From Calycina herbarum (taxonomy: Eukaryota > Ascomycota > Leotiomycetes > Helotiales > Pezizellaceae), in contig LLEY01000050.1 of the NCBI GenBank assembly GCA_001414485.1, positions 124,001 through 188,000 of the forward strand: DNA of 64,000 bases. The letters are read 5' to 3'. Position 1 is the first letter of the stretch. Every line of letters begins with the position of its first letter. A model generated the notes under the pieces. That model saw nothing but the letters and a program-made list of their open reading frames with translations. It was not told the DNA's origin and made no database searches. Both the position numbers and the translations under genes were made by a program. Shown here one piece after another: positions 24,936-46,080 of this stretch.

Positions 24936-25139
24936 ATGCCATCCTTCAAAGCTTTTGTCAAGAAACTCATCCGGGCCCGTCGGGCAAGAAAGGGGAAGAG
25001 CAAAGCACCCTTCAAAGACGCTTCGAAGTTCGACGACTTGTTCGTACGGAGTTCGAGCCTTCATAAACGCAACACTAGTCCACCCACTTCGCCTAAGAGT
25101 AAGCCGAGAGGTAGGAGGGAGGATTTTGACAATGCTTAA
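24936..25139 (+). CDS. Array gene A1: basic helix plus one SKFDDLF motif
   Basis: This 67-residue protein opens MPSFKAFVKKLIRARRARKG, the same start as the zinc-ribbon members of the array, then carries one copy of PFKDASKFDDLFVRSS followed by a Ser/Thr-Pro tail (TSPPTSPKSK). It has no cysteine ribbon. I chose the ATG at 24936 rather than one 90 bp upstream because the MPSF start and its CCAAAATG context are shared by paralogues. The motif occurs twice in A2 immediately downstream. No function is recognised. Confidence 0.7.
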   Translation: MPSFKAFVKKLIRARRARKGKSKAPFKDASKFDDLFVRSSSLHKRNTSPPTSPKSKPRGRREDFDNA

Positions 25140-25517
25140 TGCGAGGCATTGTTAAATCTGTGTTATACATTACCTCTTAACCTATAACTAGGAACCCCAC
25201 AGCTGGAACCTTAATAAATTACACAATACCCTTTCATAAATGTTTAAATGAGCCAAAGAGAACGTGAGAAAAAGTGCTAGAAGCTAATAAAGAATAGAAG
25301 GAAAATATCCCTTCCAAGTCAGGCCTTCGCAGTTAGAATCAGTTAAGTTAGGTAAAAGCAATCCTTTTACAGCCACAAAGAAAAATTAAAATAAAGCCCT
25401 TTATTTATGAAGAATCCAAACAATCCCATTCTCCAAGAACAGTGACAAAGACAAAACTATAATTACAAAGCCATAGCTTCAATATTCCAGTACTAAAATC
25501 TTCTGTGAAACACCAAG
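25140..25517. other. Gap A1-A2
   Basis: AT-rich; presumably A1 terminator and A2 promoter. Nothing else seen. Confidence 0.4.
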
Positions 25518-25817
25518 ATGCCATCCTCATATTACAAAAAGCTTCTAGAACGCCGAAAGGCGGAACCTCCCCAAGTTGCTTGCACCGGACCCTTTAAAGA
25601 CGGCTCAAAGTTTGAGGATATTTTTCAACGAACTAGTACTAAGGGACGTGAAGTTACTACCCCTGTTTCTCCTAACCGTCAGATACCTTGCTCAGCATCA
25701 TCGCCCTTTGAAGACGCCTCTAAGTTTGAAGATCTTTTTCTACGAACGAGTATTGAGAGACGTGATCTTACTTCTCCTGTTTCTCCTAAGAGTCAAATGC
25801 CTCTGAGAGAGAAATAG
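25518..25817 (+). CDS. Array gene A2: two SKFEDLF repeats
   Basis: The 99-residue protein has a short basic start (MPSSYYKKLLERRK) and then two copies, 38 residues apart, of a unit reading PFKDGSKFEDIFQRTS and PFEDASKFEDLFLRTS. Each is followed by R-E/D-V/L-T-[ST]-PVSP. The repeat is also visible in the DNA with a 114-bp period (25593 and 25707). The shared consensus with A1 is P-F-x-D-x-S-K-F-[DE]-D-[LI]-F-x-R-[ST]-S. The Ser/Thr-Pro ends look like proline-directed phosphorylation sites (inference). The ATG sits in a CACCAAGATG context like that of A3 and A4. Confidence 0.7.
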   Translation: MPSSYYKKLLERRKAEPPQVACTGPFKDGSKFEDIFQRTSTKGREVTTPVSPNRQIPCSASSPFEDASKFEDLFLRTSIERRDLTSPVSPKSQMPLREK

Positions 25818-26508
25818 GATGTGGGAATTCTCCGTGTATGTCATTGACAGGACGACATAGTCGAGAACGAAGAGAGGGTAAGGTGCTGTGAAGATGAGAC
25901 TTGAGCCCTGATCAGTGGTTTGATTGCCAGATCACGAACAATCGGATCTGTGTGAGACACACGATTTCAATATAAAATAAGAGTATACTTGATATCTAAT
26001 ACCTATGTGAGAATATTTGAAATTACCTAATGGAAGTGATGTGAAGAAATAAGGGATATAAGAACACGCGAGGCTACCCCTTCCAGGGGTCACGGCTGAA
26101 ATGTCTAGTAAGGACCATGCACAACGATAGTTGCAAATTGGGTGCTTTCGGAGACTGAATTGATCGCGTCAACCTCAAAGGAGTATTTTATGTTCTCGCG
26201 AGCGTTTTTTCTGGCTTCAAAGCATCCACTTTGGAAGCTGTTATTTTAAGCGAGCATCTCACACCTGGATGCGATAATTTCTACCTCAACACTTCTCTAC
26301 ATTTACTATTCCACTGCAATCTGTACTTCCTGCCCTAACGAAAACAAGTATCAAAACAAATTGATCTACTCACGCTAAAACCAGAACATCTGAAACAAAT
26401 ACTTTGTGGTCCCAGAAACAACCCAAAACAGTCATAAAAAAAGAAACACAATTACCCTTCAAACTCCCCTCTCCTTCCACCATCAATCTTGCTACATCAG
26501 TAACCAAG
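25818..26508. other. Gap A2-A3
   Basis: I see no gene. The right part should hold the A3 promoter, and an open extension upstream of the A3 ATG lacks a start codon. Confidence 0.4.
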
Positions 26509-27078
26509 ATGCCTTCATTCAGATCTTTCGTTAGTAATATTCTAGGCTCACGTCGAGGTGCTCCTACCCAGAGTCCATCCTGTCCCGATTGTGGGGAGCC
26601 TAGAGGGGGGTCTGATACATGTAGTCGCTGTGGTGCACACTATATTATTGTTAGTAACCCTGTTCCTGTATCGATTCCGAACCTGGGGTTACGCCTAGCT
26701 CCAGTTTCAGAACTAAATGGAGTTGCGCCACGTCGAGCTCCTCCAGCACGACGTCCAACTCCAACACCCGAGAATCCCTCCAATCCCAGACCTCCACCAC
26801 CTGCAGTTTCCCCCGCAATATCAGCCCCAGATGCCCATCTGGTTCGACTAGCCATCAAAAGATGGGATAATGAAGCTGCTGAGGAGGCGGAGGGGAAGGA
26901 AGATCCTCATGAGGGCGCATTTGAGAAGATGCAGAAGGCGAAAGAGGGTGAAGTGGAACGAGCATCGGAGGAGCACAAGCGTTTAGGGTTAATAGTGCCT
27001 TTGGAGTTTGTGGAGGAAGAGTACAATTCAGGTAAGTTCTGTTATCCACCCATCCGTACACCCGTCACTGAGAGGTGA
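26509..27078 (+). CDS. Array gene A3: basic helix plus zinc ribbon plus Pro-rich and charged tail
   Basis: The 189-residue protein starts MPSFRSFVSNILGSRRG. A four-cysteine ribbon follows (C25, C28, C38, C41: CPDCGEPRGGSDTCSRCG). Next come a hydrophobic PVSELNGVAP patch also seen in A4, a Pro-rich linker (about 75-115) and a charged helical tail (AIKRWDNEAAEEAEGKEDPH, then EEHKRLG). A GTAAGT donor-like site near 27031 lies inside the last codons, so the very end could be spliced differently. The closest relative is A4. The ribbon predicts binding of one zinc ion; the target is unknown. Confidence 0.75.
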   Translation: MPSFRSFVSNILGSRRGAPTQSPSCPDCGEPRGGSDTCSRCGAHYIIVSNPVPVSIPNLGLRLAPVSELNGVAPRRAPPARRPTPTPENPSNPRPPPPAVSPAISAPDAHLVRLAIKRWDNEAAEEAEGKEDPHEGAFEKMQKAKEGEVERASEEHKRLGLIVPLEFVEEEYNSGKFCYPPIRTPVTER

Positions 27079-27602
27079 AATCTACAGCCCCCTAACCCCT
27101 AATTTAAAACAAAAACCATTACATGGAATAGATATTGATTAAGCTTAAAGAGAAAGTGATTAAATTGACAAGGACTACAAGTAGCTGAGAGAGGTTGTGT
27201 TGGTAATGAAAAAGTAGAAATGAAAGATCGCTTCTGCATAACAAGTACATACATATATGCCCCCAAAATAGTGTATATTCAATGAGCAGCTCAATCCGTT
27301 GGAAATTTTTGGAAAGTAGGCCGCATCGGAAAGTACTGAAGATATTTGTCCCCATTTTCTGGGATTTTTCTCAAACTCGTCACATTAGCATAAGCAAGTA
27401 ATCAAATACGGAATGAACATAAGTAAAAAGAGTTACTGTCAAATAGTTTGTGATCCTCAATCATTGGTGCCACGAACTAAACACCAAAAACAACGCCAAA
27501 TCCTCTTTATCAAAGAAAAAAAACAAGCTCAACAATCTCAAAGAAGTAAACATAACTAAGCATAATCTCACCCCAACACACCACACCCCACCATCATTCA
27601 AG
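27079..27602. other. Gap A3-A4
   Basis: The 3' flank begins CCCCCTAACCCCTAATTTAAAA, cut from the same mould as the flanks of A4 and A5. No gene seen. Confidence 0.4.
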
Positions 27603-28004
27603 ATGTCGTCCTTCAAGAAATTCGTTAGAAAACTCCTGCCCGTACGGCGAGGTACTGCTACCCAGCAGACCCGACCATTCTGTCCCAATTGCTTACAACC
27701 CAGAGGGAATACTGATGCATGTAGCAAATGTGGCGCCCGCTTTATGTTGCTATATAATCAGACTGGTAACCCCACTCCTCCATCCTCATGGCTGGGGAAA
27801 ATCTTGATTCTGCTTTCAGAATTGAATCGTGTTGCACCACAGCCACAGCCACAGTCACAGCCACCGGCTCCTCCAACTCAAACTGATTTTCAAATCCCTC
27901 GAAGCCCAGTAATAACACTCACCACTCTAGCAGAGGAGGAAGAGAGACGAAAGAAGAGTGGAGATGTCGCTAGAAAGGAAGCATGGTGGAAGGAGGATAC
28001 CTAA
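27603..28004 (+). CDS. Array gene A4: basic helix plus zinc ribbon
   Basis: This 133-residue protein starts MSSFKKFVRKLLPVRRGTAT and carries a ribbon with C27, C30, C40 and C43 (CPNCLQPRGNTDACSKCG), followed by ARFMLLYN. It then has the ILLSELNRVAP patch shared with A3, a PQ-repeat linker (QPQPQSQPPAPP) and an acidic/basic tail. I chose the ATG at 27603 because the family start falls there; the frame is open for about 50 codons upstream but that part has no family features. The 3' flank has an AATAAAA signal near 28067 and a 93-bp tandem repeat further on. Confidence 0.75.
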   Translation: MSSFKKFVRKLLPVRRGTATQQTRPFCPNCLQPRGNTDACSKCGARFMLLYNQTGNPTPPSSWLGKILILLSELNRVAPQPQPQSQPPAPPTQTDFQIPRSPVITLTTLAEEEERRKKSGDVARKEAWWKEDT

Positions 28005-28879
28005 GTAAGGTATGAGTACCCCCCCGTCATAGATCTGGAAAGATCAAGATGACATCCCCAAAACCCCTAATAAAATACCAATCAAACAATAATAAATATT
28101 TAAACGACTGTGAGATGTAACTACAATTACGCTGAAGTGATAAGTGATGAATTGAAGAAGGCGAGAACTCGAAATTTGAAGGCTTCGATTGTAAAAAGGA
28201 CGAACAATGCGGTTGTGAAGAGATAACAAAGAGTCCAAACTGGCCACAGCAAATAAATCCTTGAAAATAAGGAGGCTTCGATTGGAAAAATAACAGATGG
28301 ACAATGCGGTGTGAAGCGATAACAAAGAATTCAAACAAGCCGCAGCGAATAATGCTTGAAAATAAGACTTTTCTTGAGAGGAAAAAGTTTCTACAAACTC
28401 GTATCAGAGAGAGGAAGCTCATAGCTGAATCCAATTTGGATCTCAAATCCAGACCCAAGAATTAAGACCGCACTTATGATAGACATAATTTTGAGTCATT
28501 TCTCTTGCAGCCACAGATTTCGCGAAATCGAATAACCCAGTTTCGCCACAAGGGCGTGAGGTAAAAGAGTTGGACAGAAGAAAGAAAAGATCTCCCTTTT
28601 TCTCACCTTTCAGCTCCGATATTTCTCGAAGGTTGAACGCGATAAAGGATCTCGAAACAGCTACAGAATTAAGATAAGATATCAACGCTAAAATCACAAC
28701 AGGGAAGAACAAACCCCCTACCCTAGTCTTGGGGACTGTAAACAAATCTTGGACAAATGTAAACACAAAGTGATAAGGGCATCCGAAAATCCCGCTCCTT
28801 CCAAAATCATCAACCGTGATACCAGACACCAATACACTACCTCGATACACCACCGATACACCACCGATACTCCACCACG
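28005..28879. other. Gap A4-A5 with family 3' flank and tandem repeat
   Basis: The A4 3' flank (CCCTAATAAAATACCAATC at about 28062) matches that of A5. A 93-bp tandem duplication lies at 28181-28368. Just before A5 an ATACACCACCG unit is repeated (about 28845-28876). No gene seen. Confidence 0.5.
28181..28368. repeat. 93-bp tandem duplication, two diverged units
   Basis: Unit 1 (28181-28273) and unit 2 (28274-28368) both read GGCTTCGATTG, ACAATGCGG, TGTGAAG, GATAACAAAGA, and end in TTGAAAATAAG. The copies differ by scattered substitutions and small indels. It is non-coding and lies downstream of A4. Confidence 0.75.
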
Positions 28880-29542
28880 ATGTATGACAAAAACAACCCC
28901 CCCTTTTGCCTCGCCAAAACCCCTCAAAACCCAAGAGGGGAACCAAGAGAAAGAGAGGAGAGCCCCTTCCTCACAAGAGCCAAGAGCACCTATAAACGGG
29001 CAAACGACGCTATCAACAGAAGAGCAGAACCAGGAGACACTAAGCAGCTCCTCGAAGAATTCAAGAGTGCTTATAAACGGGGAAATGATGCTCTCAACAG
29101 AATGCCACCACTCAAGCCAGAACATACGCCCCAGGTCCTCCTCGCAAGAGCCAAGAGCGCCATTGAACGGGGAAGCGAGATTCTCAACAGACGAGCACCA
29201 TTCAAACCAGAGCACGAGCCCCAGGTCCTCCTTGCAAGAGCCAAGAGCGGTTTGAAACGAGCAGCCACCTTCGCTCTCGGCAGAAGAGGAGACAAACCAG
29301 CAAAGAAGAATCCTCTTCCACCGCTTGAAGCTCCGACCCCAGGGCTTGCTCCAGCTTCAAGGTCAGAAGACGAGGGCTCCTCGTCATCTAGACGCAAATC
29401 TGAGGAGACTCTTCCACCGCCTGAAGCTCCGACCCCAGGGCCTGCTTCAGCTTCAAGATCGGAAGACGAGGGCTCCTCGTCACCTACACGCGAATCTGAG
29501 GAGGTTGACGAGGACAGAGGGAGTTCTAACACACAGAACTGA
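28880..29542 (+). CDS. Array gene A5: tandem helix-module protein without ribbon
   Basis: The 220-residue protein has four diverged basic units at about residues 30-140: LTRAKSTYKRANDAINRR, EEFKSAYKRGNDALNRM, LARAKSAIERGSEILNRR and LARAKSGLKRAATFALGRR. The DNA period is 90 bp in the best-kept part (29131 and 29221). The C-terminal half has two 32-residue acidic Pro/Ser repeats (PLPPLEAPTPG..SEDEGSSS; DNA period 96 bp at 29315 and 29411). The helix unit resembles the N-terminal helices of B2 and A6, so I infer that this gene amplified that module and lost the ribbon. Another frame over the same DNA is also open, but only this one gives family-like units and a shared CCACCACGATG start context. 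Confidence 0.7.
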   Translation: MYDKNNPPFCLAKTPQNPRGEPREREESPFLTRAKSTYKRANDAINRRAEPGDTKQLLEEFKSAYKRGNDALNRMPPLKPEHTPQVLLARAKSAIERGSEILNRRAPFKPEHEPQVLLARAKSGLKRAATFALGRRGDKPAKKNPLPPLEAPTPGLAPASRSEDEGSSSSRRKSEETLPPPEAPTPGPASASRSEDEGSSSPTRESEEVDEDRGSSNTQN

Positions 29543-30200
29543 CTATCTAAGGACACCTAGCGGTGAGTAGTTGTGCCATCCACGAACGAGTCTTAATTGA
29601 CCACCCCCAACCCCACCCTAATAAAACACCAATCAAACCGTAATTTGGGCTATATATGTTTAAATGATTCTAAGATATAATGCAATTGTAACAAAAGTGA
29701 CGAAATATAGAAAGCTGAGGGCTTTTAAAAGAGGTTTGGAAAGATAAAGACAAGAGACAAACGACTCGATGAGAAGAAGTGACAAAGAGAAATGCCAATG
29801 ATAACACCACCAACCATTCATAACATATTACGTGGAAAACGTACCTTCGAGAATTCTGGAGATAAACATCTAGCCTACGGTATATGAGCGTTGAAGAATA
29901 AATGGAACATCACCGGAAAGATCTCTCCACAAATTCCAAAATGCTTCCATACATTTTCCGATTCGAAGACTGCTAATAATTGCTGGGACAGGTATAAAAC
30001 AAGGGTAATATACCAACCCAAACTAAGGCCAAAACATCAAAAAACAAAACTTCGACTAGTTAACTTGGTGTTTAGACAACTTAAAACACATCAGAGACAG
30101 GAATAATCAAGTGCTATAACACCCACAAGCGTTCCCAAACTTCCCTCTCCTATCCTTCGTGAAACTAGACACCCACATACTGTTTAGATACACCACCACA
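29543..30200. other. Gap A5-A6
   Basis: The A5 3' flank (ACCCTAATAAAACACCAATC at about 29617) repeats the A4 flank. The rest is AT-rich, and the A6 leader ends with TACACCACCACA before the ATG. No gene seen. Confidence 0.45.
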
Positions 30201-30389
30201 ATGCCTTCCTTCCAATCAATTTCCACCTTCGTCACGAATGCGAAAGCTATAGCGCGGCACGCAAGAAACACCAGTCTCGAAAACTCGGCCAAAACATCTT
30301 CCCCAGGAACCCTATCAACAAGAGCAAAATCCACAGCAATCAAAGCAAACTCGGCTCTTAACAGAAGAGGAGAAGACAAGCCAGCATAA
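30201..30389 (+). CDS. Array gene A6: basic helix protein, 5' half of a probable split gene
   Basis: This 62-residue frame starts MPSFQSISTFVTNAKAIARH and ends with one copy of the A5-type unit (LSTRAKSTAIKANSALNRRG), then stops after EDKPA. The next frame, A7, starts only 14 bp later in the -1 frame and supplies the ribbon that normally follows such a helix (compare B2). I therefore think A6 and A7 descend from one gene that lost its frame, although both could still be translated separately from one transcript. Confidence 0.6.
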   Translation: MPSFQSISTFVTNAKAIARHARNTSLENSAKTSSPGTLSTRAKSTAIKANSALNRRGEDKPA

Positions 30390-30403
30390 AGGGAACCCTA
30401 CAA

Positions 30404-31009
30404 ATGTCCTGTTGCTCAAAGCTACTTCCCATAAAAGGAAATCAGTGTAAAAACTGTGGATATATCGCTCCTCCAGATTTCAATAAGCAACTTCCCCTGA
30501 GTCCCAGGAAACCGCTTCCGACACCTGGGAGTAAATATGCGTCTTCTCCGTCCCGAACTGATATATCTCCACCCCCATCTCCTCCTTTCGAACCTCCAAG
30601 TCCGAAGAGGAGAGCGGAGATGCCGGGAGAAGAAGTTCATGCCGCAAGGGAGTATTCCGGAGGAACAGGCTCAGAAGAGGAAAGAACACGCAGAACTGAC
30701 TCTCATCCGACATCCCCCTCTCCTCCGCCCCTATCACCCCCTCGTGCTCATAACCACGATGCAGACCAGACTACACCAACAGGAATAGACTGGGACGTAG
30801 AAAGGGAGTATATGGAGAGGAAAAATCCAAAAGGAGAAAGGAGACGCAAGACGGATTTCCAGAGGGTTGTAGGTGGGATGTTGGAGGATGCTAGCCCCAA
30901 GAAAGATGAGGATGATGATTTTGATGAGATTGGACCATTTGTCTCTCGCGAGAGTTCGAAGCGAGGTCCTACCCATCAGGTGAGAGCTTGGGTTCATGAG
31001 AGAGGGTGA
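30404..31009 (+). CDS. Array gene A7: degenerate ribbon plus Pro-rich acidic tail
   Basis: The 201-residue frame begins MSCCSKLLPIKGNQCKNCGY, a ribbon whose first knuckle has become C3-C4 rather than C-x2-C, while the second (C15, C18) is intact. IAPPDF follows at the place of YITPPP in B2. The remainder is Pro/Ser-rich (SPPPSPPFEPPSP) and then charged (WDVEREYMERKN, DEDDDFDEIG). It lacks its own basic helix. The frame is open upstream back to 30362, so a single -1 shift between 30362 and 30389 would join it to A6. Its own ATG has a usable ACAAATG context. Confidence 0.6.
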   Translation: MSCCSKLLPIKGNQCKNCGYIAPPDFNKQLPLSPRKPLPTPGSKYASSPSRTDISPPPSPPFEPPSPKRRAEMPGEEVHAAREYSGGTGSEEERTRRTDSHPTSPSPPPLSPPRAHNHDADQTTPTGIDWDVEREYMERKNPKGERRRKTDFQRVVGGMLEDASPKKDEDDDFDEIGPFVSRESSKRGPTHQVRAWVHERG

Positions 31010-31848
31010 AGTACCCGTGAGTAGCTTCGCCCCTTGCAGAGGGAGTTCGGAAATTGGAAACTAAACACCCTACCGTAATGAAAGACAATTTAAAAAACTA
31101 ATTGAATTTACCATGGTGAAATAGTGTAGAAAATGCAACTGTAATTGAAAACGATAAAAGATAGGGTTCCGTGAAGAAGAAGAAAGCAGGTAGGTAGAGT
31201 GAGCATCGATTTCTTCTGTGCTCTTCGCCATGAGATTTTCCTCAAAGACAAAAAAACAAAAACTACTCGAGAGAAATAACAAAGGAAATGATGCTTCTCC
31301 TTGAACCAGCTAAACAATGCCGCTTAAAAGTTTTCTTTCAGCTTCCATAGTTGTCGCCACCATACTGCAGCCACAACATGAGAAAAATACAGTATCCAAA
31401 ATCCAAGGGAAGATACCTCATCGCACTTTACTAAGCCCCGAAGAAGAAATAACTCGACGTACGTCTTTCTAGATAATTATCCGCTGGTGTAACTTCTCAT
31501 TTTGCTGTAGTAATAAGATACCAGCTTGATTCGTCTTCTTTTAACGAGTTTCGAGACGGACGCAGAAACTCCGAGTGTGTGTGTGAGTGAGTGGAAGAGA
31601 GTCAGTCTTGTTTTGCAATCTGCTACCAATATGAACCACCTCATAGAAGCAGGAAGATACAGAGGAGAGGAAGGAAAGAGAATCGAAAAGAACTGGAACG
31701 GAGGAATATAAGAAAGGGCAACCCAGGTCTTTAACCTTCTCGAAGCCAGTTCTTGTCAAAAAGTGATTCGAGTCCACGTTGTTGATACCCAACCCAGCTT
31801 TAAACCAGTCTGATCATATCACCATCCGAATCCCAAACGCCGTCGAAA
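31010..31848. other. Gap A7-A8
   Basis: A7 3' flank (CCCGTGAGTAG, also seen after A5 as GCGGTGAGTAG) and A8 promoter. A GTGTGTGAGTGAGTG run lies near 31576. No gene seen. Confidence 0.4.
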
Positions 31849-33723: not shown

Positions 33724-36105
33724 ATGTCTACCACAACAGGTGCCACCACTGGAATCCACAATGCCAACAGAGACATTCGGAACCACTATCTCTTCGAGAT
33801 AGCCACAGAGGTCGCCAACCGAGGTATGTCGCACCAAAACCGTTGAGACCTGCGCCTGCACAATGCGACAATGTACTGACCTGTCAAAGTGGGCGGAATC
33901 TACTCGGTCATCAAATCCAAAGCTCCAGTGACCACTGCTGAATATGGCGATCGATACTGTCTTATTGGGCCCCTGAACAAACAATCCGTAAGTTCCTCAT
34001 GCACCAAGTCACAGGCCATGGGCTAACCCTCGTAGGCCGCGGTCGAGGTAGAAGCTCTCACGCCCACCAACCCACACCTTGCCAAGACGATCGAGTCGAT
34101 GGAAGAGAGAGGAATTGGCATTGTATATGGTCGATGGCTGATTGAGGGTGCTCCCCGCGTTCTGTTAATTGACACGAAAACTGCCTACAGATTCTTGGAC
34201 GAATGGAAGGCCGATTTATGGAACACAGCAGGAATCCCATCTCCCCCTGGGGATGACGAGACCAATGAAGCAGTGGTGTTTGGTTATCTCGTTGCATGGT
34301 TCTTGGGAGAGGTAAATGCCCAAAATTCAGTGAAATCTCGGCAGTGGCTAACTAAAATAGTTTGTCTATCACGAAAAGGAACACGCCGTAATTGCGCACT
34401 TCCACGAATGGCTGTCCGGTGTAGCATTACCTCTATGCAAGAAGCGAAGAATCGATGTTACCACCATCTTCACTACCCACGCAACTCTTCTCGGACGATA
34501 CCTCTGCGCTGGTTCGGTCGATTTCTACAATAACCTACAATACTTTGATGTGGATTCGGAAGCTGGAAAGCGTGGCATCTACCATAGATATTGCATTGAG
34601 CGTGCTTCGGCACATTCTTGTGATGTCTTCACGACAGTTTCCCATATCACTGCGTACGAGAGTGAACATCTCTTGAAGCGCAAACCAGATGGTGTCCTTC
34701 CAAACGGTCTGAATGTCACAAAATTCTCTGCCATGCACGAGTTCCAGAATCTGCACCAGCAATCGAAAGAGAAGATCCACGATTTCGTTCGAGGTCATTT
34801 CTATGGCCACAACGACTTCGATCCTGAAAACACCCTCTACTTCTTCACTGCTGGTAGATACGAATACAGAAATAAGGGTGTCGACATGTTTATAGAATCG
34901 TTAGCACGGCTGAACCACCGATTAAAGTCTGCTGGCTCCAAGATCACCATTGTTGCATTTATCATCATGCCAGCTCAAACACAATCATTGACCGTGGAAG
35001 CATTGAAGGGACAGGCAGTCATCAAATCTCTACGGGATACAGTTGATGTAATTGAGCGTGGTGTTGGAAAGCGGATTTTCGAGCGTGCTTTGAAGTGGCA
35101 TGATGGAGATGCTATGCCAGATGAAAAAGACCTTATTACCAGCCAGGACAGAATTCTTCTTCGCAGAAGATTGTTCGCAATGAAGAGACATGGACTTCCT
35201 CCAATTGTCACTCACAACATGGCCAATGATTCGGAAGATCCAATTCTCAACCAAATCCGAAGAGTCCAACTTTTCAACCACCCATCAGACCGAGTCAAGA
35301 TTGTCTTCCACCCAGAATTCTTAAACTCCGCCAACCCAGTTCTACCAATGGATTACGACGACTTCGTTCGAGGAACTCATCTCGGTGTTTTCTCCTCTTA
35401 CTATGAACCTTGGGGATACACGCCAGCAGAGTGTACAGTTATGGGGGTTCCAAGTATCACAACCAATCTTTCTGGATTTGGTTGTTATATGGAGGAGCTT
35501 ATTGAAAACTCTACTGACTACGGTATCTACATTGTCGATCGTCGTATGAAGGGTGTCGATGATTCTGTTAACCAACTCACTTCATACATGTTCGATTTCG
35601 CCAACAAGTCAAGACGTCAACGTATCAACCAAAGAAATCGTACCGAGCGACTGAGCGATCTTTTGGATTGGAAGCGAATGGGCATGGAGTATGTCAAGGC
35701 ACGCCAACTCGCCCTCCGAAGAGCATACCCAGCATCATTCGAAGGAGAGGAGGACGACGATTTCATCCCTGGTGTTGAACAGAAGATCTCGAGACCATTC
35801 TCTGTTCCTGGTTCTCCCAGAGACCGAAGTGGCATGATGACACCAGGAGATTTCGCCAGTCTACAAGAAGGCCGGGAAGGATTGAGCACGGAGGATTATG
35901 TTGCATGGAAGTTACCGTAAGTTTTCTTTTCCTGGACGAGAATTGATTAGGACATTACTAATCATTTCTCGTTTTCTTGTTATTTAGTGAGGAGGAAGAC
36001 CCTGATGAGTACCCATTTCCTCTTACTTTGAGATCGAAGAAGGCTACGGGACCTACCAGTCCGGCTGAGCCTATCACCAATGGTGATAGGAATGGTGGAT
36101 CATAA
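33724..36105 (+). CDS. GSY1: Glycogen synthase (glycosyltransferase family 3)
   Basis: Gsy1 extends glycogen by transferring glucose from UDP-glucose in the cytosol. Five exons, 33724-33823, 33890-33987, 34036-34311, 34361-35916 and 35988-36105, splice to 715 residues, the usual length. The N-terminus reads [20 protein letters not shown] then [13 protein letters not shown], the UDP-glucose-binding start. The E-x7-E catalytic motif is [19 protein letters not shown] (about residues 506-514). An Arg-rich helix ([20 protein letters not shown], about 574-594) matches the glucose-6-phosphate sensing element of eukaryotic enzymes. The Ser/Pro-rich C-terminus ([22 protein letters not shown]) has the expected regulatory phosphorylation character. 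It lies between the two arms of the small-gene array. Confidence 0.96.
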
Positions 36106-37525: not shown

Positions 37526-37948
37526 TCATTTTGATCTTGATTTACTTGTTCCTAGCTTGTTTCCCTTCTTGCTTCCCAGGGCACTCGGTAGATGTTCCTC
37601 CTGTTCCCATGAAAATAGTGTTGGATGGGGTTTGTTCAAAACCAGTGCCGGGTCTCCTCTCGCTTCGCTCGCTTCTTTTCCCTCATTCCTCTTGTTCATA
37701 CCCTTGCCGTCTTCCCACGAGTTCCGGTCTTCCTCATCCTTGGGTAGAGGACCAGGAGGGCGAGGAAGGAGTTTGTTCAAATCTTTGGCTGTTATCATGA
37801 AGCGAGCGCCGCATCTTGCACAAGGGTTCTTGGTTCTAGGTAAGTGGCAGATGGGACAAAGATTCAGGCTTGGTGTTGCTTTTGGGCATGGGCTTGGGTT
37901 ATGGGGGGAGGTTATTAGTTTTTTGATGAAGACTTTTAGGGTTGGCAT
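37526..37948 (-). CDS. Array gene B1: basic helix plus zinc ribbon
   Basis: The 140-residue protein starts MPTLKVFIKKLITSPH and has its ribbon at C31, C34, C43 and C46 (CPICHLPRTKNPCARCG), followed by ARFMITAKDLNKLLPRP. The ribbon and the next 15 residues are nearly the same as in B4 (CPFCHEPRLTNPCSNCG, AQFMITAEELHRLL). The tail is charged (DEEDRNSWEDGKG, KEASEARGD) and ends Lys/Ser-rich. It is the first right-arm member, reading towards GSY1. Plus-strand frames over the same DNA are shadows. Confidence 0.75.
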   Translation of the reverse strand: MPTLKVFIKKLITSPHNPSPCPKATPSLNLCPICHLPRTKNPCARCGARFMITAKDLNKLLPRPPGPLPKDEEDRNSWEDGKGMNKRNEGKEASEARGDPALVLNKPHPTLFSWEQEEHLPSALGSKKGNKLGTSKSRSK

Positions 37949-38558: not shown

Positions 38559-38831
38559 TCATCCTCTCTTCTCTTTTCCACTTGGCTCCTCAATCTCAAT
38601 AATAAAGCAATTAGTCCCTAAATGCGGACCATGCATCGGTGGACCTGGAGGAGGAGTAATGTACGAACCGCAGTGCGGACAAACTCTCCACTTGCCACAG
38701 ATGATAGGTCCACATTTTGGACAGAATGCTCTTTGCTTTCCTTCGGTTAGAGCAATCAGCGATTCTCTAGCCTTTCGGGCTAGAGATCTCGCTTTGATTG
38801 CTAGTTTTGCGGTTAATGAGGAGGATGACAT
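38559..38831 (-). CDS. Array gene B2: long basic helix plus zinc ribbon
   Basis: The 90-residue protein has the longer helix type (LAIKARSLARKARESLIAL, about residues 10-28) and a ribbon at C37, C40, C51 and C54 (CPKCGPIICGKWRVCPHCG; C45 is extra), followed by SYITPPPGPP and a short acidic/basic end. The helix resembles the repeated unit of A5 and the ribbon surroundings match A7, which links the left and right arms. The Arg/Lys-rich N-terminus could also act as a mitochondrial presequence; that is only an inference. Confidence 0.7.
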   Translation of the reverse strand: MSSSSLTAKLAIKARSLARKARESLIALTEGKQRAFCPKCGPIICGKWRVCPHCGSYITPPPGPPMHGPHLGTNCFIIEIEEPSGKEKRG

Positions 38832-39326
38832 TGTGGGTTGTGTGGTTTGGATTGTCTGGTTGGGTGTGGTATTGAGGTATGGAGGTTAGGGTTTATGGAG
38901 GAAAGGAATGAAAGAGATAATTTGAGATGTAGTTATAGATATGGATAGGTTGTTGTCTAGTAGGATTTTGATTCTGTTATATTGGATTTTGTTCTGATAT
39001 TGAATTACTGTTATTAGCTTCTATTTTTATGAAAGATTTCAGGTATTAGTTGTTTGTGGGAACAGAAATTGAGAGGGCAATGAGAACAAAGGTATTTTTT
39101 GAAAAGGAATGATACGAATACTCTTCCGTAATTGTGATTATGAGTTCACCCAGAATGGTCTTGAAGACATCTTGTTTATCTCTTGTTTAGGAGGAATATT
39201 TATATATTTCCTTCCGAATTTTCTCTTATTTTCTCAATTTTGATGACCTTGGTAGTCTATAAATCTTACTAGGAGATACATATTATTTTGCGCCCATGCT
39301 CTGGCCTTTTTGACTTTATCCTGTAA
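38832..39326. other. Gap B2-B3
   Basis: AT-rich; nothing seen. Confidence 0.4.
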
Positions 39327-39599
39327 CTACTCAAGTTCTTGATGCACTTCTATGGGTTCCTGAAGTGTAGCTGAAAGTTCGAGCTGAGTATCCTGCAGTT
39401 CTTGACGGGAAGTCGAAAGGCGGTCTTGGGTATCCTCAAATTCTCTTTTTGTACTGTTAACTTGTTGACCTACAGGCTCCTCCTTTTGATTTGACTTGAG
39501 TGAGAGATGCGTAATGTTCGGTTGTTTGTTTTCCGTATTAGGCTCTGTGCTTGACTGACGGCATGAGAGTATGAGGTTTTGGAGAAGGGGGGAGGCCAT
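39327..39599 (-). CDS. Small hypothetical coiled-coil protein B3
   Basis: The 90-residue frame starts MASPLLQNLILSCRQSS and ends with a heptad-patterned stretch made of a roughly 10-residue unit (EFEDTQDRLSTSRQELQDTQ, then LELSATLQEPIEVHQELE). It has no ribbon and no basic start helix. Position, strand and size fit the array, but the call rests only on the frame and its regular pattern. Confidence 0.4.
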   Translation of the reverse strand: MASPLLQNLILSCRQSSTEPNTENKQPNITHLSLKSNQKEEPVGQQVNSTKREFEDTQDRLSTSRQELQDTQLELSATLQEPIEVHQELE

Positions 39600-39894
39600 T
39601 TTGAGTTATGATATAGTGAGGAAGGATGTCTTCGAAATCACTGGTTGTGGAAAATTGGGGGACTAAGAGGATAAAATTGAGAGGGGTGGGGGTTCTAATT
39701 ATTTTTATTGTTATTCGTTGTCTGAATCCAGAGCTTGTGTTCTTGGATGATGTTTAAGTTTTTGAGTTCGTATGTTGAGTTGTCTTGAGACCTGTGTTTT
39801 GATAATTGGTTTCAGCCGGACTTGCATCTAAGAAAGCATAGGAGTGGAGGGAACTGTTTCAAAGGGTCGGTCGTCTGGAGTTTATTCTCCCATA

Positions 39895-40389
39895 TTACTT
39901 ACCTCCCTTTTGGTCATTCTCCTTCTCAAGAGCAAGAGCCGCCTCATAAGAATCCAACTTATGAGGGGCAACCTCCCGAATAGTCGCACGAACAGCATCT
40001 TCAAATGCACCCTGTCCCGCTTGCAAACGAGCAGCTGCTTGTTCACTTTCAACAGCGGTGCGTAGACTATTGGAGGAACCTTGGTCTCGATCTGTCCCCC
40101 AATTAATCTCTCTCCATTGAATTCCACCTTGTCCAGATAGGTGTTGGGGAAGGGGTTGCTTGAGATCTTCAGCTTGCTTACTTCGCGGATCTTTTGGCGG
40201 AAGGATAGGGGCAGAAGATTTAAGGGAAAGTAATCTATGTAGTTCTTCTGCAGTAATCATGAATTGTGCACCGCAGTTTGAACATGGGTTTGTTAACCTA
40301 GGCTCGTGACAGAAGGGACAACGACCTGGTCCTTTTGCCTCGCGGCCAAAAGCTAGGATTTTTTTGAAGAACGAATTTAATGACGACAT
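39895..40389 (-). CDS. Array gene B4: basic helix plus zinc ribbon plus helical tail
   Basis: This 164-residue protein starts MSSLNSFFKKILAFGREAKG and has its ribbon at C24, C27, C36 and C39 (CPFCHEPRLTNPCSNCG), then AQFMITAEELHRLLSL. The tail is Pro/Gln-rich and then alpha-helical (RTAVESEQAAARLQAGQGAF, EDAVRATIREV, SYEAALALEKEN). B1 is the closest relative, over the first 70 residues only; the tails differ. The start context and the CACC-rich leader match other members. Confidence 0.75.
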   Translation of the reverse strand: MSSLNSFFKKILAFGREAKGPGRCPFCHEPRLTNPCSNCGAQFMITAEELHRLLSLKSSAPILPPKDPRSKQAEDLKQPLPQHLSGQGGIQWREINWGTDRDQGSSNSLRTAVESEQAAARLQAGQGAFEDAVRATIREVAPHKLDSYEAALALEKENDQKGGK

Positions 40390-41462
40390 ATTTGGTGTGT
40401 CGGGGTCAAGGGTGGTGGTGGAAAAGTGGGCGAGTGGGGAGATTTAGTGCCTTTGTTAATAGGTTTGTTTAGGTTGTTGTTTTAGTTGTTTACCAATTAT
40501 CTTGTTTCATAAGCGGGAGTGGGAACTCGTGGAAGTAGTGAAAGCACAAAATAAGAATTTCAGGGGTTTGAAAATGAGCATGTAGATGTCAACGTCATCC
40601 TTCGAAGTAACTTGTAAGTGTTGATCAATTTGCAATCTCTGTTGAAGGGACACTGTTTTCGCATATTTCTAGTCCATACCCCGTAACCCTGATGCCTTGG
40701 CATCTGTCCTTTGGTACATATAAGCTGCCATCTTTTCTCCTTTGGTTAATAAGAGATTGTTGAGAAAGCTGCTTTGAAGTTTGGAGTCACATAGTATACA
40801 CATCTTAACTAGGACATCACAAGAAAAGCGGTAAATGATTAATATTGATTAAATGGAATAGCTATTGTTTTGGGGGCATTGAAAGAACAAAGGTCATTCA
40901 TATTCGTTTAAAGAAGAGTCAAAGACTCTGGGAAAATAATCCGTGCTTTGTCTACTTTTTTACTACCTCGATTTCTTGTTCCACTTCATACTGAAATCTA
41001 TTGTTCTAGGTGCATTTTGAATACAATTGTATTTGGTGTTTAAGGTTGGGCAATTACGAATTACATTTTGGGGGCCAAAATTGTTCCCAGTAACTACCAA
41101 AGATTAAGTAGAAAGTAAAAACTCAACTCACTTTTTCGCAGCCAAAACTTCAACAAAGCTCGAGCATGTACCAGCTCAGCAAAAGAAAATTATGTCAATC
41201 TTCTAAAGCGAGAACGCGAGTAACTATTGGCTCATAAAAGTGGGATACAGATCCACACGCTGGTAGGTATATTGAATTATTTATAAAGTCACAAGTGTAT
41301 AAGATGAAAGTCGTAGAGAAGAATTCAGAATCCAAACAAGGAAAAACAATACAATTAAAAATGAATCGAGGAAATTAACGAGGAGGATCAATGAGAGTGT
41401 AAAAGTAAAAGAGTTCAGTTCTTTATAGTAAAGGATGTCCGCTTCAGATACAGCTAATGAGT
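40390..41462. other. Gap B4-B5
   Basis: Contains the B4 promoter on its left side. No supportable gene, RNA or repeat seen. Confidence 0.4.
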
Positions 41463-42092
41463 CTATTCTAGGAACGGTGCAGAGTCATCATCACCTCTCT
41501 TCATCTGAAGTAGAGGATCAAAAACCCCACCCATATGAGGAAAAATGTCTGACACGAGATCTACAAAGTTTTCCAACCCCTTCTGCTGATCTTCAACTAT
41601 CACCTCCTTACCTTTCCCCTTCTCTTCAGCCGTAAACCTTCTCTCTTCTTCAGGAGTGCCCTCATCAACCGCCCCTCCACCATAAAGAACCGGATGAAGT
41701 TCAATACCCACCTCATCATCCTCTTGTTCCATATCCACCAAGAGCTCCTGCATCATCTCCATGCCCCACTCCCTACAAATCCTCTCACTTGTCTCCTTAG
41801 CTTTTTCCACGGCAGCGAAAGAGACATACTGACCAAATACAGCTTCAAATTCATCAGAATTGTCCATGGGCTCAGGATCTGTTGGTGGCATTTCTACCAT
41901 GATTCTTGGGGAGAAGTAGGGGATGTTAGAAGCCCATTTGTAAGAAACTCGATCTTTTTGGTTAAAACCTGGAAGGGTGGAAAGGGCTGCTTTGGTCAGT
42001 TGGTCGGTTGGGTGGTTTTCAAAGGAGTCTAGGCTAAGGGTGGTGGCGTTTGTGGAAGGCATTCCTTGCTCTGAATAGTTGAGGGTGGGCAT
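41463..42092 (-). CDS. Hypothetical protein B5
   Basis: The 209-residue acidic protein starts MPTLNYSEQGMPSTNATTLS. It has a middle region that looks folded (DEFEAVFGQYVSFAAVEKAK, ERICREWGMEMMQELLVDM) and an acidic C-terminal half (EQEDDEVGIELHP, FTAEEKGKGKEV, ENFVDLVSDIFPHMGG). There is no ribbon or basic start helix. Its ATCAAAATG leader resembles those of array members, but I see no sequence relation and no known domain. Confidence 0.6.
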   Translation of the reverse strand: MPTLNYSEQGMPSTNATTLSLDSFENHPTDQLTKAALSTLPGFNQKDRVSYKWASNIPYFSPRIMVEMPPTDPEPMDNSDEFEAVFGQYVSFAAVEKAKETSERICREWGMEMMQELLVDMEQEDDEVGIELHPVLYGGGAVDEGTPEEERRFTAEEKGKGKEVIVEDQQKGLENFVDLVSDIFPHMGGVFDPLLQMKRGDDDSAPFLE

Positions 42093-42925
42093 TTTGATGG
42101 TGGCTTTTCCGGTCGTGGGTGCTAGATTCTGTTAGGAGTTAGTGATCTCGACTGGCATCAAGATTGGAGGGGGTAAACGGGGTTTGTATAAACGATAATT
42201 GTTATTGTTTTCTCTTTCTTAGAAAAGAGTAGAATTATAGAATAAAGAGTTAAAAGTACAATAGTATTATACTTTCTTTGTTGGGTTGTTTAACATCTTG
42301 GTTCTGACGTGATTCTACCAAGGGATGGTGGTATTCATGGGTTACCTAGAAATAGACGCCCTAGAAATTTGTGGTATATGTAGGTTACCTGCAGATATGT
42401 AACAACATGAAAAATTATAGGTGATGTTAGTAGGCTAGCTACAAATAAAGACATGAAATAGTGTATACCATTTGTAGGTAACCCAAAAAACGAGATGTTT
42501 ACCAATTCCCCTGTTTCATGAGTCTTCTTAAAGGGACCTCATGGAAGCACACTGTGGTGGCGGGGTAACATTGAGAATTGCAAGCACTTGAAAAACAGCA
42601 CGAAGATAAGAGTGACAGCTGTTCTTTTTCTTTTCTTTTTTGAACCAAGTGCTTATTGATTCCTAGAATAGAATGGTGACCCTTTGCGCCAGTTTCCAAC
42701 CCATACCGGGTCCCTTCCTAGTACATGTTGGTTGCTAACTTCTCCTTGACATTATTACAAGGTATAATATTGGCTTATAATTCTATGGCCTCATAACATG
42801 ACATATCTTAAAATAGAAGATTCTATTAAAAACGAATGATAGGTATTCATTGAAGGGGGGGGGGGGGCTTGATTAAGTAAATAACGTTGTTTCAGGAATA
42901 CAAAGAGAACAACAGTACATATGCA
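42093..42925. other. Gap B5-B6 with a small inverted-repeat element
   Basis: Holds the B5 promoter, the 146-bp element at 42339-42484 and a 13-bp poly-G run near 42856. No gene seen. Confidence 0.45.
42339..42484. mobile_element. Candidate MITE, 146 bp
   Basis: The ends are GGGTTACCTAGAAATAG and the reverse complement of CCATTTGTAGGTAACCC, matching at 15 of 17 positions. Inside are further TAGGTTACCTGCAGATA and TAGCTACAAAT pieces related to the ends. It is AT-rich and non-coding. No target-site duplication is visible (flanks GTATTCAT and AAAAAACG), so the superfamily is open. Confidence 0.55.
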
Positions 42926-43135
42926 CTATCGTTTCTTTGTTCTTTTGCGCTTCTTTTTATCCTTGATCCAGATGGGGTTTGGCTGAGCTGCTGTGTAACC
43001 GCAAAAGTCACACGATTTACTTCCGGGGATCCAAGGGTCTCCACAGGTTGGACAAAGTGGTTTATTTCCTGTCAGAGAAGCTTTCGTCTTTCGAACTCGT
43101 TCTTTGAAATGAGTGATCTTTGCTGGGGAGATCAT
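42926..43135 (-). CDS. Array gene B6: basic helix plus zinc ribbon, minimal form
   Basis: The 69-residue protein has a basic helix (ITHFKERVRKTKASLTG), a ribbon at C28, C31, C42 and C45 (CPTCGDPWIPGSKSCDFCG), then YTAAQPNPIW and a Lys/Arg-only end (KDKKKRKRTKKR). It matches B7 closely from the ribbon to the PNPI/PRPI motif, so the two are recent duplicates. The basic tail would suit nuclear import or nucleic-acid contact (inference). Confidence 0.7.
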   Translation of the reverse strand: MISPAKITHFKERVRKTKASLTGNKPLCPTCGDPWIPGSKSCDFCGYTAAQPNPIWIKDKKKRKRTKKR

Positions 43136-43736
43136 TCTGATTGCAGGTTATGATTTACGATTATTGATGTGTAAGTATAGTTCGAAGAATGAACTGAAGG
43201 GGTATTTATGCTTTTTTCGGGATTTCTGTTTTTGTATGTTTAGACGGACGAATTTGAGTTGCGATGGGAAATTGTTTGGAAGGGTGTTTGGGTTTGGTGT
43301 TGATTACCTGTTTTGGCTAATTAATAATAGGAGTCGAAGCACATTTAAGAACATGGTGATAATGAGTATGAACAATTCATCCTAGTTTAAGAGGGAAAAG
43401 AAATTTCATGATTTGTTAGAAAGTATTGTTCTGAGAGAAGGACAGTACTTCAGATAATATAATGGTCTTTTTGATTCTCGAGTTCCTTCGTCTTTGTTTC
43501 GGTCCAGTAGTCAAAGACTCGTCCAAAACAGTCACGCCTCTGTCGCTTTGTCACTTCATCACAATGTCGTTGTCTTTCTTCTAGGAATTCTTTAAATGTG
43601 TTTTAAAGTTATATTGATAGGGGGCTTGGGGGCTTGGGGGTGTACTCATCGAGTCATCTCAAGCTCACGTTCCCAAGCTTTCGAGTAGACTCGAAAGATC
43701 TCAATAATCATTAAGTCTCTCGTCTATTTACCTGGC
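43136..43736. other. Gap B6-B7
   Basis: A GGGGGCTT doublet lies near 43620-43640. Nothing else seen. Confidence 0.4.
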
Positions 43737-43979
43737 TTACCGATGTTTGTCCACTCCCCAAATATCAGGGTCACCAGGCTTACGGGGAGGATCGACCATG
43801 ATCGGTCTCGGGTGGAGCTCTGTTCGTCCACAGATGCGACAAACAGAACTTCCGAGGGGCCACGGCTCTCCGCAGGTTTGGCAGCATGGCCGCCGCCCTG
43901 TTCGAGATGCTACTGCTTCTCGGGCTCTTCGGGCTAGAGCCCTTAAGTGGATGTGAAACTTAAAAAGTGCAATGGTCAT
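43737..43979 (-). CDS. Array gene B7: long basic helix plus zinc ribbon
   Basis: This 80-residue protein starts MTIALFKFHIHLRALARRAR, has a strongly Arg-rich helix to residue 30 and a ribbon at C33, C36, C47 and C50 (CQTCGEPWPLGSSVCRICG; C32 is extra), then RTELHPRPIMVDPPRKPGD. The near-absence of acidic residues in the first 30 positions would fit a mitochondrial presequence or a membrane-binding amphipathic helix; the sequence cannot decide. Its leader has CAACACCAACCCACACC before the ATG. Confidence 0.72.
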   Translation of the reverse strand: MTIALFKFHIHLRALARRAREAVASRTGRRPCCQTCGEPWPLGSSVCRICGRTELHPRPIMVDPPRKPGDPDIWGVDKHR

Positions 43980-44545
43980 GGTGTGGGTTGGTGTTGTGTC
44001 TCGGGTTTGACGAGGAGAGGAATTTGGAGGGTAGATTGGAGGATTATTATGGAAGTAATTTAGAACTGTTTATTTCTGTTGAGAAGTTGTCTCTGTTTTA
44101 TAGTTGTTTTGCTCGTTCTTTTGATAGCTAACAAGTCTGGAGACCTTGTCCAAAACTAAAAATCCGTCAATAATAACACCTAGAGAGGGTCTCGGGGTTT
44201 TATTCAAAAAAATCCAGTCATGAACTCGATCACGTATTCCTTTATTTGAAACGGTCCGGCCTCCAGGTTCCAATACGCATGATATCCTAGAATAAGTTTA
44301 ATACTGCTCTGCTTCAAAACCACTCCACTGCATCATGCAGGCTTCTAGCTGGTCGATAAGACTTAAATCTTTTATTTAATATTTCACAATTTCACTGGTA
44401 TTCTACGCTAATTCTAAAAAAATTGATACAACTGTTGTATTTTAAGGGGTATCGGGGGCCCCAGGTTTACCTCTCATTCTTGTCTATTCTCTTCTCCTTC
44501 TATGCCTAGCCTACTATCACTCTAGCATGCAGCTTGTCATATTAA
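43980..44545. other. Gap B7-B8
   Basis: B7 promoter and B8 3' flank. No gene seen. Confidence 0.4.
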
Positions 44546-44989
44546 CTAGTGTTCAAGTGGGCCCCGAAACCTCAAGATCCGGAGGAAATTAAGGTGGCGG
44601 AAGAGGAGAAATAGAACAAACAAAAGTGCTATCGTTTTCCCACTAAAAACGAAGCCCAAAGTAGGTTCGTGGTCTTTCTCTCTCTGAAGCGCTTTGTTCT
44701 TGACAGGCCGTCTGAGAGTTAGGGCCAGCGGACGAGGAGTAGTGACGTCTTTCAAAGCAGGACGTTTGGGAGGTGGAGATATAGAAAGTACCTCTGAAAT
44801 AGCAGATGCTCTCCTGGATATCGGCTCCTTCAAATCGCACTTTGCGCATACGTTATTAGTCATTGGTTGCTCGCAATTCTGACACAGAGGTCTCTTGGAC
44901 TTGAGTGTCTTCCTTACTGCGGCCCGAACTCTTCGAGCTCGGGCTCTAGCTCTGGTGACTAGATTCGTGGTGTTCGTGAAGGATGTCAT
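44546..44989 (-). CDS. Array gene B8: basic helix, zinc ribbon and C-terminal membrane segment
   Basis: The 147-residue protein starts MTSFTNTTNLVTRARARARR, with the Arg/Ala helix running to about residue 30. The ribbon is at C36, C39, C48 and C51 (CQNCEQPMTNNVCAKC). A Ser/Pro/Lys-rich linker follows, and near residues 118-132 a hydrophobic segment (KTIALLFVLFLLF) flanked by basic residues (RHLNFLRILRFRG). This looks like a tail anchor, which would place the ribbon on the cytosolic face of a membrane (inference). It is the only member in which I see a clear membrane span. Confidence 0.7.
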   Translation of the reverse strand: MTSFTNTTNLVTRARARARRVRAAVRKTLKSKRPLCQNCEQPMTNNVCAKCDLKEPISRRASAISEVLSISPPPKRPALKDVTTPRPLALTLRRPVKNKALQREKDHEPTLGFVFSGKTIALLFVLFLLFRHLNFLRILRFRGPLEH

Positions 44990-45873
44990 GGTGATAGCTT
45001 GTGATGGTATTACTTTAGAGGAAGAATATTTTACTTAGAGGGTATTTTGAGACATATTTATGCTTTCCATTTCGCTATTGTCTAGGAGAGAGTTTTAGTT
45101 GTTCAAAGTAACGATTTGGAGTTGTTCCTTGAGTATGATAAGCTATTTAGCTCTTAGCGTCAATATATTACCTTGTCTACAGTTGAATACTGCCGTGTTG
45201 TATTTCAGTGGTCTTCTAAACTTGAAAAAGACAAGTGTGACATTGTTTAGTGTCACTATTTTTTTTTCCATAATAAACTTAATTGTAATCTTTTAATCAC
45301 TGATCACGCAATTTCAAATAATTTTCACTCACGTTACCACTGTTTACTTCATAGAGCTTCTAGAATTTTATTCCGGCCAAGTCGAAACCTAGATTATTTC
45401 CGAGAATAATTAGCAATTTTTTAGATTATCATAATTTATACTCTGCTCAACAGAGTACTACTGAAGTCTTCATAAGTAACTACTATACTACGAGTTACTA
45501 TAAGTACCATCTAAGAAGTTGAGTACTCTTTGAATACAATATTTGAAACCGCTAAGTTATAGAAGTTAAGCGAAAATGAAATATCAACTTCATTTGGCAA
45601 GAACGGTCTCAATGAGCTGACTATGCTAGCAAACAGAACAACTATAAGAGAAAAGAACTATAAGAGAAAAACTCAGATGACGAACAAGCCCGCCCGCATT
45701 GGCTGGCGTTATAATCAAAATCAACTCTACGCTAATACTAGCGGCTAAGCTCTAACTGTATAGAAATCAAGTCCATCACGTTCCTTCCAAAAACCACACC
45801 CCACAACCACATCACTAATCCAAGGCTAAAATCCTCCCTCATCAACATTCATAAAATTCTTTCATTCAAGGTC
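44990..45873. other. Gap B8-B9
   Basis: AT-rich. At about 45430-45545 there are mixed GAGTACT/AGTTACT motifs faintly like the GAGTAG elements at 12.1 and 13.9 kb. No gene seen. Confidence 0.4.
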
Positions 45874-46080
45874 CTACCTACCTTTGGCAGCACCTATAGG
45901 ACTCCTTTCATAGCATCCCATAAGTTCGCGATATTTCCTCTCTACCTCCTCACTACAGGAAAGACAGCAAGTGGGGTTAAACACCGGTGCTTCCTTTCCA
46001 CAAAATCGACAGGTGGGCTGCTTCTTGCGGCCCAAGCGCTGCAAAAGCTTGCTGACGTTTCCTAGGGTGTTGAAGTTCAT
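45874..46080 (-). CDS. Array gene B9: short helix plus zinc ribbon
   Basis: The 68-residue protein starts MNFNTLGNVSKLLQRLGRKK. Its ribbon has C24, C27, C39 and C42 (C38 is extra; CRFCGKEAPVFNPTCCLSC). A charged helix follows (SEEVERKYRELMGCYERS). I take the ATG at 46080 by family analogy and its CAAAAATG context; the frame stays open 71 codons further upstream, with no family feature there. It is the outermost right-arm member and the most divergent ribbon. Confidence 0.6.
   Translation of the reverse strand: MNFNTLGNVSKLLQRLGRKKQPTCRFCGKEAPVFNPTCCLSCSEEVERKYRELMGCYERSPIGAAKGR

Follow-up and report, generated by a model that had tools for sequence, protein, structure and literature searches.

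What might explain why a short interval in the genome of the fungus Calycina herbarum is crowded with small genes that pair a basic N-terminal segment with two CxxC knuckles? The interval, at 26.5-46.0 kb, lies in a window, the whole stretch of 64,000 nucleotides (nt) that was analyzed, which corresponds to bases 124001-188000 of contig C326 (LLEY01000050.1) in an assembly of 68.8 Mb and 379 contigs. An initial annotation had proposed here an array of helix-plus-zinc-ribbon genes belonging to an apparently undescribed family. The array is a real family with coding constraint, and its motif is not due to chance. Judged from its sequences it is a real new family of a familiar evolutionary kind, apparently fast-turning and extending beyond the interval, and what its proteins might do is a matter of weighing several readings of unequal probability.

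Coding constraint in the array

Nine intact frames (A3, A4, B1, B2, B4, B6, B7, B8 and B9), open without an intron like all frames named here, combine a basic N-terminal segment with C-x2-C-x8-11-C-x2-C, and the spacer of 8-11 residues between the knuckles that had been proposed is the one measured in these members. Scanned in all six frames for CxxC-x(5-16)-CxxC, the whole window yields 12 matches. Nine are the intact members, all at 26.5-46.0 kb; of the other three, two are noise (tiny or interrupted frames) and the third, at 63.8 kb, is a different frame. When the interval was resampled 200 times with an order-2 Markov model, ATG frames of at least 60 amino acids (aa) with the motif near the start numbered 0.005 on average and 1 at most, against 9 observed. 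The whole-window version of the same count is 8, which we attribute to B9, whose frame begins there at an upstream ATG and exceeds the position limit. Scan and resampling thereby bear out nine of the frames first listed as ribbon plus basic helix; the tenth, A7, has CC...CxxC in one frame, not CxxC...CxxC, and drops out.

The nine array genes were selected by their motif, and five dispersed genes elsewhere in the genome were found by similarity; two CxxC knuckles, the mark of a zinc ribbon in the broad sense, are present in all nine and are retained in four of the five. In these 13 genes with all four cysteines, both TGT and TGC are used at every one of the four positions; the codon thus drifts and the residue stays, as the suggested constraint on the cysteines would have it. 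Ratios of nonsynonymous to synonymous divergence (dN/dS, NG86) are 0.21-0.49 in nine of ten chosen paralogue pairs and saturated in the tenth (A1/A2), values that are rough because dS is above 1 and near saturation. Over 1978 aligned codons (from pairs with z >6, which share genes), differences pooled by codon position are 0.45, 0.40 and 0.62 for positions 1, 2 and 3, a count that rests on protein-guided alignments. With stops left out, codon usage trained on four larger frames of the window favors the named frame in 14 of 21 cases, against 11 of 97 for ATG frames of 60-120 aa across the window, a set of 97 that includes seven array frames; it does not favor that frame in the remaining seven cases (B2, B7, B8, B9, C56b, C376 and C323b). 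These last frames, the roughness of dN/dS and the dependence on guided alignments speak against the constraint. A version of the codon-usage test that counted stops (19 of 21 favored) was set aside as biased, the frames having been chosen for being open. An A stands at -3 of the start codon in 20 of the 21 frames, the exception being A7. Codon-position differences and dN/dS support coding constraint in what had been called a fast-evolving family.

Two helix types, replaced modules and dispersed copies

A single shared helix, as first supposed, gave way to two types. Type I (A3, A4, B1, B4 and A1, with A2 deviating) begins M-[PS]-[ST]-[FL]-x-x-F-[VIF]-x-x-[LI]-[LI] and has the ribbon CPxCxxPR-x4-5-C[SA]xCGA; type II (B2, B7, B8 and the C56, C344, C376 and C323 genes, with B6 and A6) has an Arg/Ala helix around LARKAR. 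With the initial methionine fixed and the remaining residues shuffled, pre-ribbon segments were similar at p<0.05 for most pairs within a type (14 of 15 in type I, 34 of 45 in type II), but for few across types (10 of 60) or with B9 (2 of 16). The result for B9 agrees with the early view of it as more divergent; its membership in the family is the least sure. The ribbons of the two types match in profile comparison with a probability of 93%, over 21 columns only, and some 5' flanks link the types (A3 with C323a, E 2e-5; A3 with B6, E 0.001). Common descent of the two helix types is, on these comparisons, likely but not proven: the helices are hardly alike, so that the descent of all members from one ancestor rests on the ribbon, some flanks and location, which counts against treating them as one family. 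Selection on two modules, another early proposal, calls for qualification in view of the split of the helix, the absence of the ribbon from A1, A2 and A5, and the loss of one cysteine in the C323 gene.

The nine intact members range from 68 to 189 aa and their tails differ, in keeping with the variable sizes and tails noted at the outset (Table 1). In A1 and A2 a module resembling PF[KE]D[AG]SKF[ED]D[LI]F...TSP.SPK replaces the ribbon. A1 and A2 align with z 11.6, and a genome search with A2 matched, besides itself, A1 only. Though its module differs from the ribbon, A1 retains a 5' flank like that of A3 (61% over 171 nt, E 3e-9) and a helix that resembles those of A3 and A4 in the shuffle-tested comparison. 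A3 and A4 align with z 27.6 and have dN/dS 0.49. A5 and A6 align with z 7.4, and their 5' flanks are alike (59% over 216 nt, E 2e-5). Overlapping A5 is another open frame, of 123 aa (28884-29255, +), whose start codon lies four bases downstream. A6 and A7 are most simply read as a single disrupted member whose helix is in one frame and whose ribbon remnant is in another. Within the array, B2 matches the C56, C344 and C323 genes best, and B8 is a paralogue of the C376 gene, 5' flank included (75% over 162 nt, E 1e-27).

Table 1. Family members, disrupted copies and neighboring genes; positions are those of the window unless a contig is given
Feature	Position	Strand	Size	Description
A1	24936..25139	+	67 aa	Type I helix (MPSFKAFVKKLI...), without ribbon; PFKDASKFDDLF...TSP.SPK module, one copy
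A2	25518..25817	+	99 aa	Degenerate type I start, A1 module twice, without ribbon
A3	26509..27078	+	189 aa	Type I helix, then ribbon CPDCGEPRGGSDTCSRC, long tail
A4	27603..28004	+	133 aa	Type I helix, then ribbon CPNCLQPRGNTDACSKC
A5	28880..29542	+	220 aa	Largely repeats of a unit common to A6 (RAKS...LNRR); without ribbon
A6/A7	30201..31009	+		Type II-like helix frame 30201-30389 ending at a stop; ribbon remnant in other frame, 30404-31009 (A7)
B1	37526..37948	-	140 aa	Type I helix, then ribbon CPICHLPRTKNPCARC; B1-B4 z 19.2
B2	38559..38831	-	90 aa	Type II helix (LARKARE), then ribbon
B4	39895..40389	-	164 aa	Type I helix, then ribbon CPFCHEPRLTNPCSNC
B6	42926..43135	-	69 aa	Basic segment, then ribbon; tail KKKRKRTKKR; B6-B7 z 21.9
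B7	43737..43979	-	80 aa	Type II helix (LARRARE), then ribbon
B8	44546..44989	-	147 aa	Type II helix, then ribbon; hydrophobic C-terminal stretch
B9	45874..46080	-	68 aa	Divergent; amphipathic N-terminus, then CRFC-x11-CLSC
Dispersed gene	C56:1442-1711			Single-protein genome search and scan of fetched stretches
Dispersed gene	C56:4295-4549			Single-protein genome search and scan of fetched stretches
Dispersed gene	C344:68-301			Single-protein genome search and scan of fetched stretches
Dispersed gene	C376:1587-1922			Single-protein genome search and scan of fetched stretches
Dispersed gene	C323:226818-227024			One cysteine lost
Disrupted copy	C323:226067			Frame disrupted
Cyclin exon	20491-21483			PF08613
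Glycogen synthase exon	34361..35917	+		Pfam PF05693, 951 bits; inside the array, between A and B blocks
Cytidine-deaminase-like frame	47420-48412			PF00383, 22.9 bits against a cut-off of 25
Rsc7/Swp82 subunit	49076-50245			PF08624

The picture of a dense local expansion between housekeeping genes fits the nine members at 26.5-46.0 kb and is incomplete with respect to the copies dispersed on C56, C344, C376 and C323. With the copy at C323:226067 and A6/A7, the disrupted copies are two. The tally of dispersed copies is a lower bound, because the genome search scores best candidates only and took no profile; weak matches (E 0.05-1.5) on C347, C358, C190, C93, C13, C379 and C223 had no ribbon near a start codon in the stretches retrieved and were set aside. 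The C344 and C376 genes have WSPLDK in common close to the C-terminus. Copies on three contigs sit within 5 kb of the contig start, and no TTAGGG or CCCTAA doublet, as of telomere repeats, was found in the first 10 kb of C56, C344 and C376.

Homologous 5' flanks indicate that, in at least some cases, a gene was duplicated along with its promoter. Of the 231 pairs formed by 22 flanks (including the neighbors B3, B5 and 31849), 22 pairs have matching 5' flanks at E<0.1; in the controls this is so for 3 of 190 pairs, and two of those three overlap each other in the window. 3' flanks match in 9 of 231 pairs. The C344 and C376 flanks are 71% identical over 181 nt and those of the two C56 genes 65% over 167 nt. 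Searched at the DNA level with the C376 unit, the genome gave B8 only; C344 was missed although its flank matches that of C376. The promoter word TACCC[CT], picked post hoc, occurs within 200 nt upstream at a frequency of 0.52 in the 21 frames, against 0.08 in random stretches of the window. In a tree of 14 domains, one of 11 inner branches is well supported (B8 with the C376 gene), and array and dispersed copies intermix, clustering no more than with shuffled labels.

Between the two C56 members, C56 1974-3838 is taken up by an element whose 57-nt terminal inverted repeats are 95% complementary; by eye it looks like a dead DNA transposon. Also by eye, bases 1-60 of contig C376 look like the 3' flank of the family gene on that contig, which would fit another copy lying past the contig end. 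At C376 3931-4419 there is also a ribbon-first frame, MKTPHCQVCGRICYFFTCPSCG, with a long low-complexity tail and no helix, and with no Pfam match over the cut-off.

Within the window, the A-block genes are all on the forward strand and the B-block genes all on the reverse, so that both blocks point towards the glycogen synthase gene between them; the neighbors of the array are housekeeping genes (cyclin, glycogen synthase, cytidine-deaminase-like and Rsc7/Swp82). Two further frames of the B block, B5 (41463-42092, -) and B3 (39327-39599, -), have A at -3 and favored codon usage and carry neither the helix nor the ribbon signature; the 5' flank of B5 weakly matches that of A3 (E 0.025). An extra small cysteine-rich frame at 63796-63858 (-), MAYTKCCQCCALFPSGWIEHTSCHEC...HWGC, is unlike the family. 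Scans of the window for tRNA genes and with Rfam gave no matches.

Localization, nucleic-acid binding or conflict

The explanation to which we lean, while holding it a little short of an even chance, is a family of small intracellular zinc-ribbon proteins that is restricted to one lineage and evolves by birth and death, in which the helix would localize the protein and the ribbon would bind a partner. Gene units of promoter, helix and ribbon would duplicate, with copies later lost, and tails would diverge. The four cysteines, going by the motif, would bind zinc and fold as one predicted ribbon that contacts a partner, either protein or nucleic acid. The basic N-terminal helix would place the protein, most likely as a mitochondrial-presequence-like or membrane-binding signal. 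In their first 20 residues, all 17 listed members have 2-8 Lys or Arg and 11 of the 17 have no Asp or Glu; basic, mostly acid-free N-termini with the recurrent start M-x-[ST]-[FL] suggest a localization signal at the very N-terminus, which is our best guess for the helix. That it serves mitochondrial or membrane targeting in particular is a tentative proposal, in which we place about one-third of our belief. The proteins are probably intracellular, since no hydrophobic N-terminal signal is visible by eye. An AlphaFold2 model of B2 has a helix at 4-30, then two short strands and a disordered tail, with block means of 72-88 in predicted local distance difference test score (pLDDT) over residues 1-60; the model of A4 has a short helix at 4-11 at low confidence and no strands of three or more residues. 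A Foldseek search with the B2 model, which is small and unsure, found no match in the PDB or BFVD at E<=0.001.

Several observations weigh against this explanation. One or two acidic residues occur in 6 of the 17 N-termini, and amphipathicity exceeds that of shuffled sequences at <=0.05 in only 4 of 21 frames (A6, B4, B9 and C344). The tail of B6 resembles a nuclear localization signal and that of B8 a transmembrane segment, which makes one common address doubtful. Mean pLDDT is low in both models (67.8 for B2 and 56.2 for A4).

The strongest rival is that helix and ribbon together bind nucleic acid in a layout like that of bL32, the products being nuclear, nucleolar or ribosome-associated RNA- or DNA-binding proteins; we consider this rather unlikely, as we do a nucleic-acid-binding role for the helix itself. 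Its case is drawn from the strong positive charge, the B6 tail and the best profile matches among solved structures, which are bL32 (E 1.5e-4, helix and ribbon covered), Nop10 and L37. However, unrelated ribbons (RecR, eIF2gamma, LapB and Met-tRNA ligase) match too, at E 0.004-0.05, so what the bL32 match reflects may be no more than a short ribbon next to a basic stretch. With the type I profile, Met-tRNA ligases are the only matches (E >=0.14) and bL32 is not found.

Improbable, to a clearly greater degree, is an intracellular conflict or self/non-self family, directed against mobile elements or mycoviruses or serving allorecognition. Conflict would explain rapid turnover, and the disrupted copies, variable tails, dispersed copies and degenerate inverted-repeat element between the two C56 members are all consistent with it; but no positive selection appears (dN/dS <0.5), no link to known conflict domains was seen, and a single neighboring element proves little. 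A variant of equally low probability could be viewed as a persistent cassette, in which promoter and basic helix stay and the module that follows is replaceable (mostly the ribbon, SKFEDLF...SP in A1 and A2), the exchange being driven by conflict. If that were true, the locus would yield small address-plus-adaptor proteins with new endings, from an undescribed eukaryotic family. Finally, chance or decaying frames, open only as non-coding repeats, could draw on the two disrupted copies and the seven frames that codon usage does not favor, and are very improbable given a motif count far above resampling, cysteines kept despite codon alternation and dN/dS below 0.5 in nine pairs.

Searches for relatives and comparison with known systems

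The restriction to one lineage of the family favored above, a tentative reading of the absence of relatives found, comes from several searches. A4 compared with 5.8 billion proteins returned one protein of 14 candidates, and this contains A4 itself. A profile of ten members, covering type II and B9, returned 3 of 2235 candidates from the protein database: P0002, identical to the protein of the C376 gene and located on a 1277-base contig of another source; P0003, which is B8 itself; and, at E 0.02, a protein with a double zinc ribbon that is unrelated. Neither search found a relative beyond copies identical to the organism's own. With the glycogen synthase exon as a control, 7996 proteins were scored and 5408 of them fell at E<=1e-30; the best, on a 75 kb contig (P0005), is 96% identical (entries are 90% clusters, and the organism's own sequence may be inside one), and the best matches that carry a name are ascomycetes, so that near and far fungi are present in the database. 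The protein search requires shared 5-residue words and would miss fast-diverged orthologues. B2 had no relative in prokaryote and viral collections. The early description of the family as lineage-specific is compatible with these results, within searches that miss fast-diverging proteins.

Pfam and NCBIfam gave weak and various ribbon matches, and every score printed beside its cut-off falls below it; this holds for ten array proteins at every cut-off, while for dispersed members tallies and best E-values only were available. The proposed profile search for a well-characterized family accordingly brought no strong match. Among the publications listed, none appeared at the level of abstracts to describe such a family, which is undescribed as far as libraries and literature show. 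Orphan multigene families are common in fungi, which limits the surprise. There are 14 intact small genes (nine in the array and five dispersed, one of the latter short of a cysteine) that, with helix-only relatives, share one layout; if expressed, they would be a tractable example of a lineage building and diversifying intracellular zinc-ribbon proteins.

Of the known systems, bL32 (PF01783) is the closest in layout, with a basic N-terminal stretch followed by one C-x2-C...C-x2-C ribbon. The idea that the family descends from the mitochondrial ribosomal protein bL32m as derived paralogues, for which the order of presequence-like start and zinc ribbon and the top rank of bL32 among profile matches speak, is the least probable reading of all and was rejected: B2, the sole member listed, scores 16.9 bits in the genome search (17.0 in the Pfam comparison) against a cut-off of 21.3, a bL32-like frame separate from the family occurs in the genome at C68:93001-93153 (54.4 bits), and none of the nine array members has the histidine that bL32 carries three residues ahead of its third cysteine. 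Only 2 of 14 members match bL32 at E<=1, and the family here is a multigene array. Zn_Ribbon_1, Zn_ribbon_3 and DZR (PF13240, PF13248 and PF12773) have similar CPxCG...CPxCG-like knuckles and match weakly (E<=1) in 5, 4 and 4 of the 14 members, but the scores are below the printed cut-offs, the ribbon here is single and the N-terminal helix lies outside the matched stretches. Archaeal Nop10 also has a single ribbon and a comparable profile score (best E 4.7e-4); unlike in the family, the ribbon matched in Nop10 opens the protein (from residue 4-10) and no helix precedes it. The mode of expansion is reminiscent of fungal lineage-specific families, whose small proteins keep a common N-terminal part and have multiplied within one lineage. 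The secreted IGY family (PMC4367982) is an example of this kind. In contrast, the members described here have no secretion signal apparent by eye, and most of them carry a zinc ribbon.

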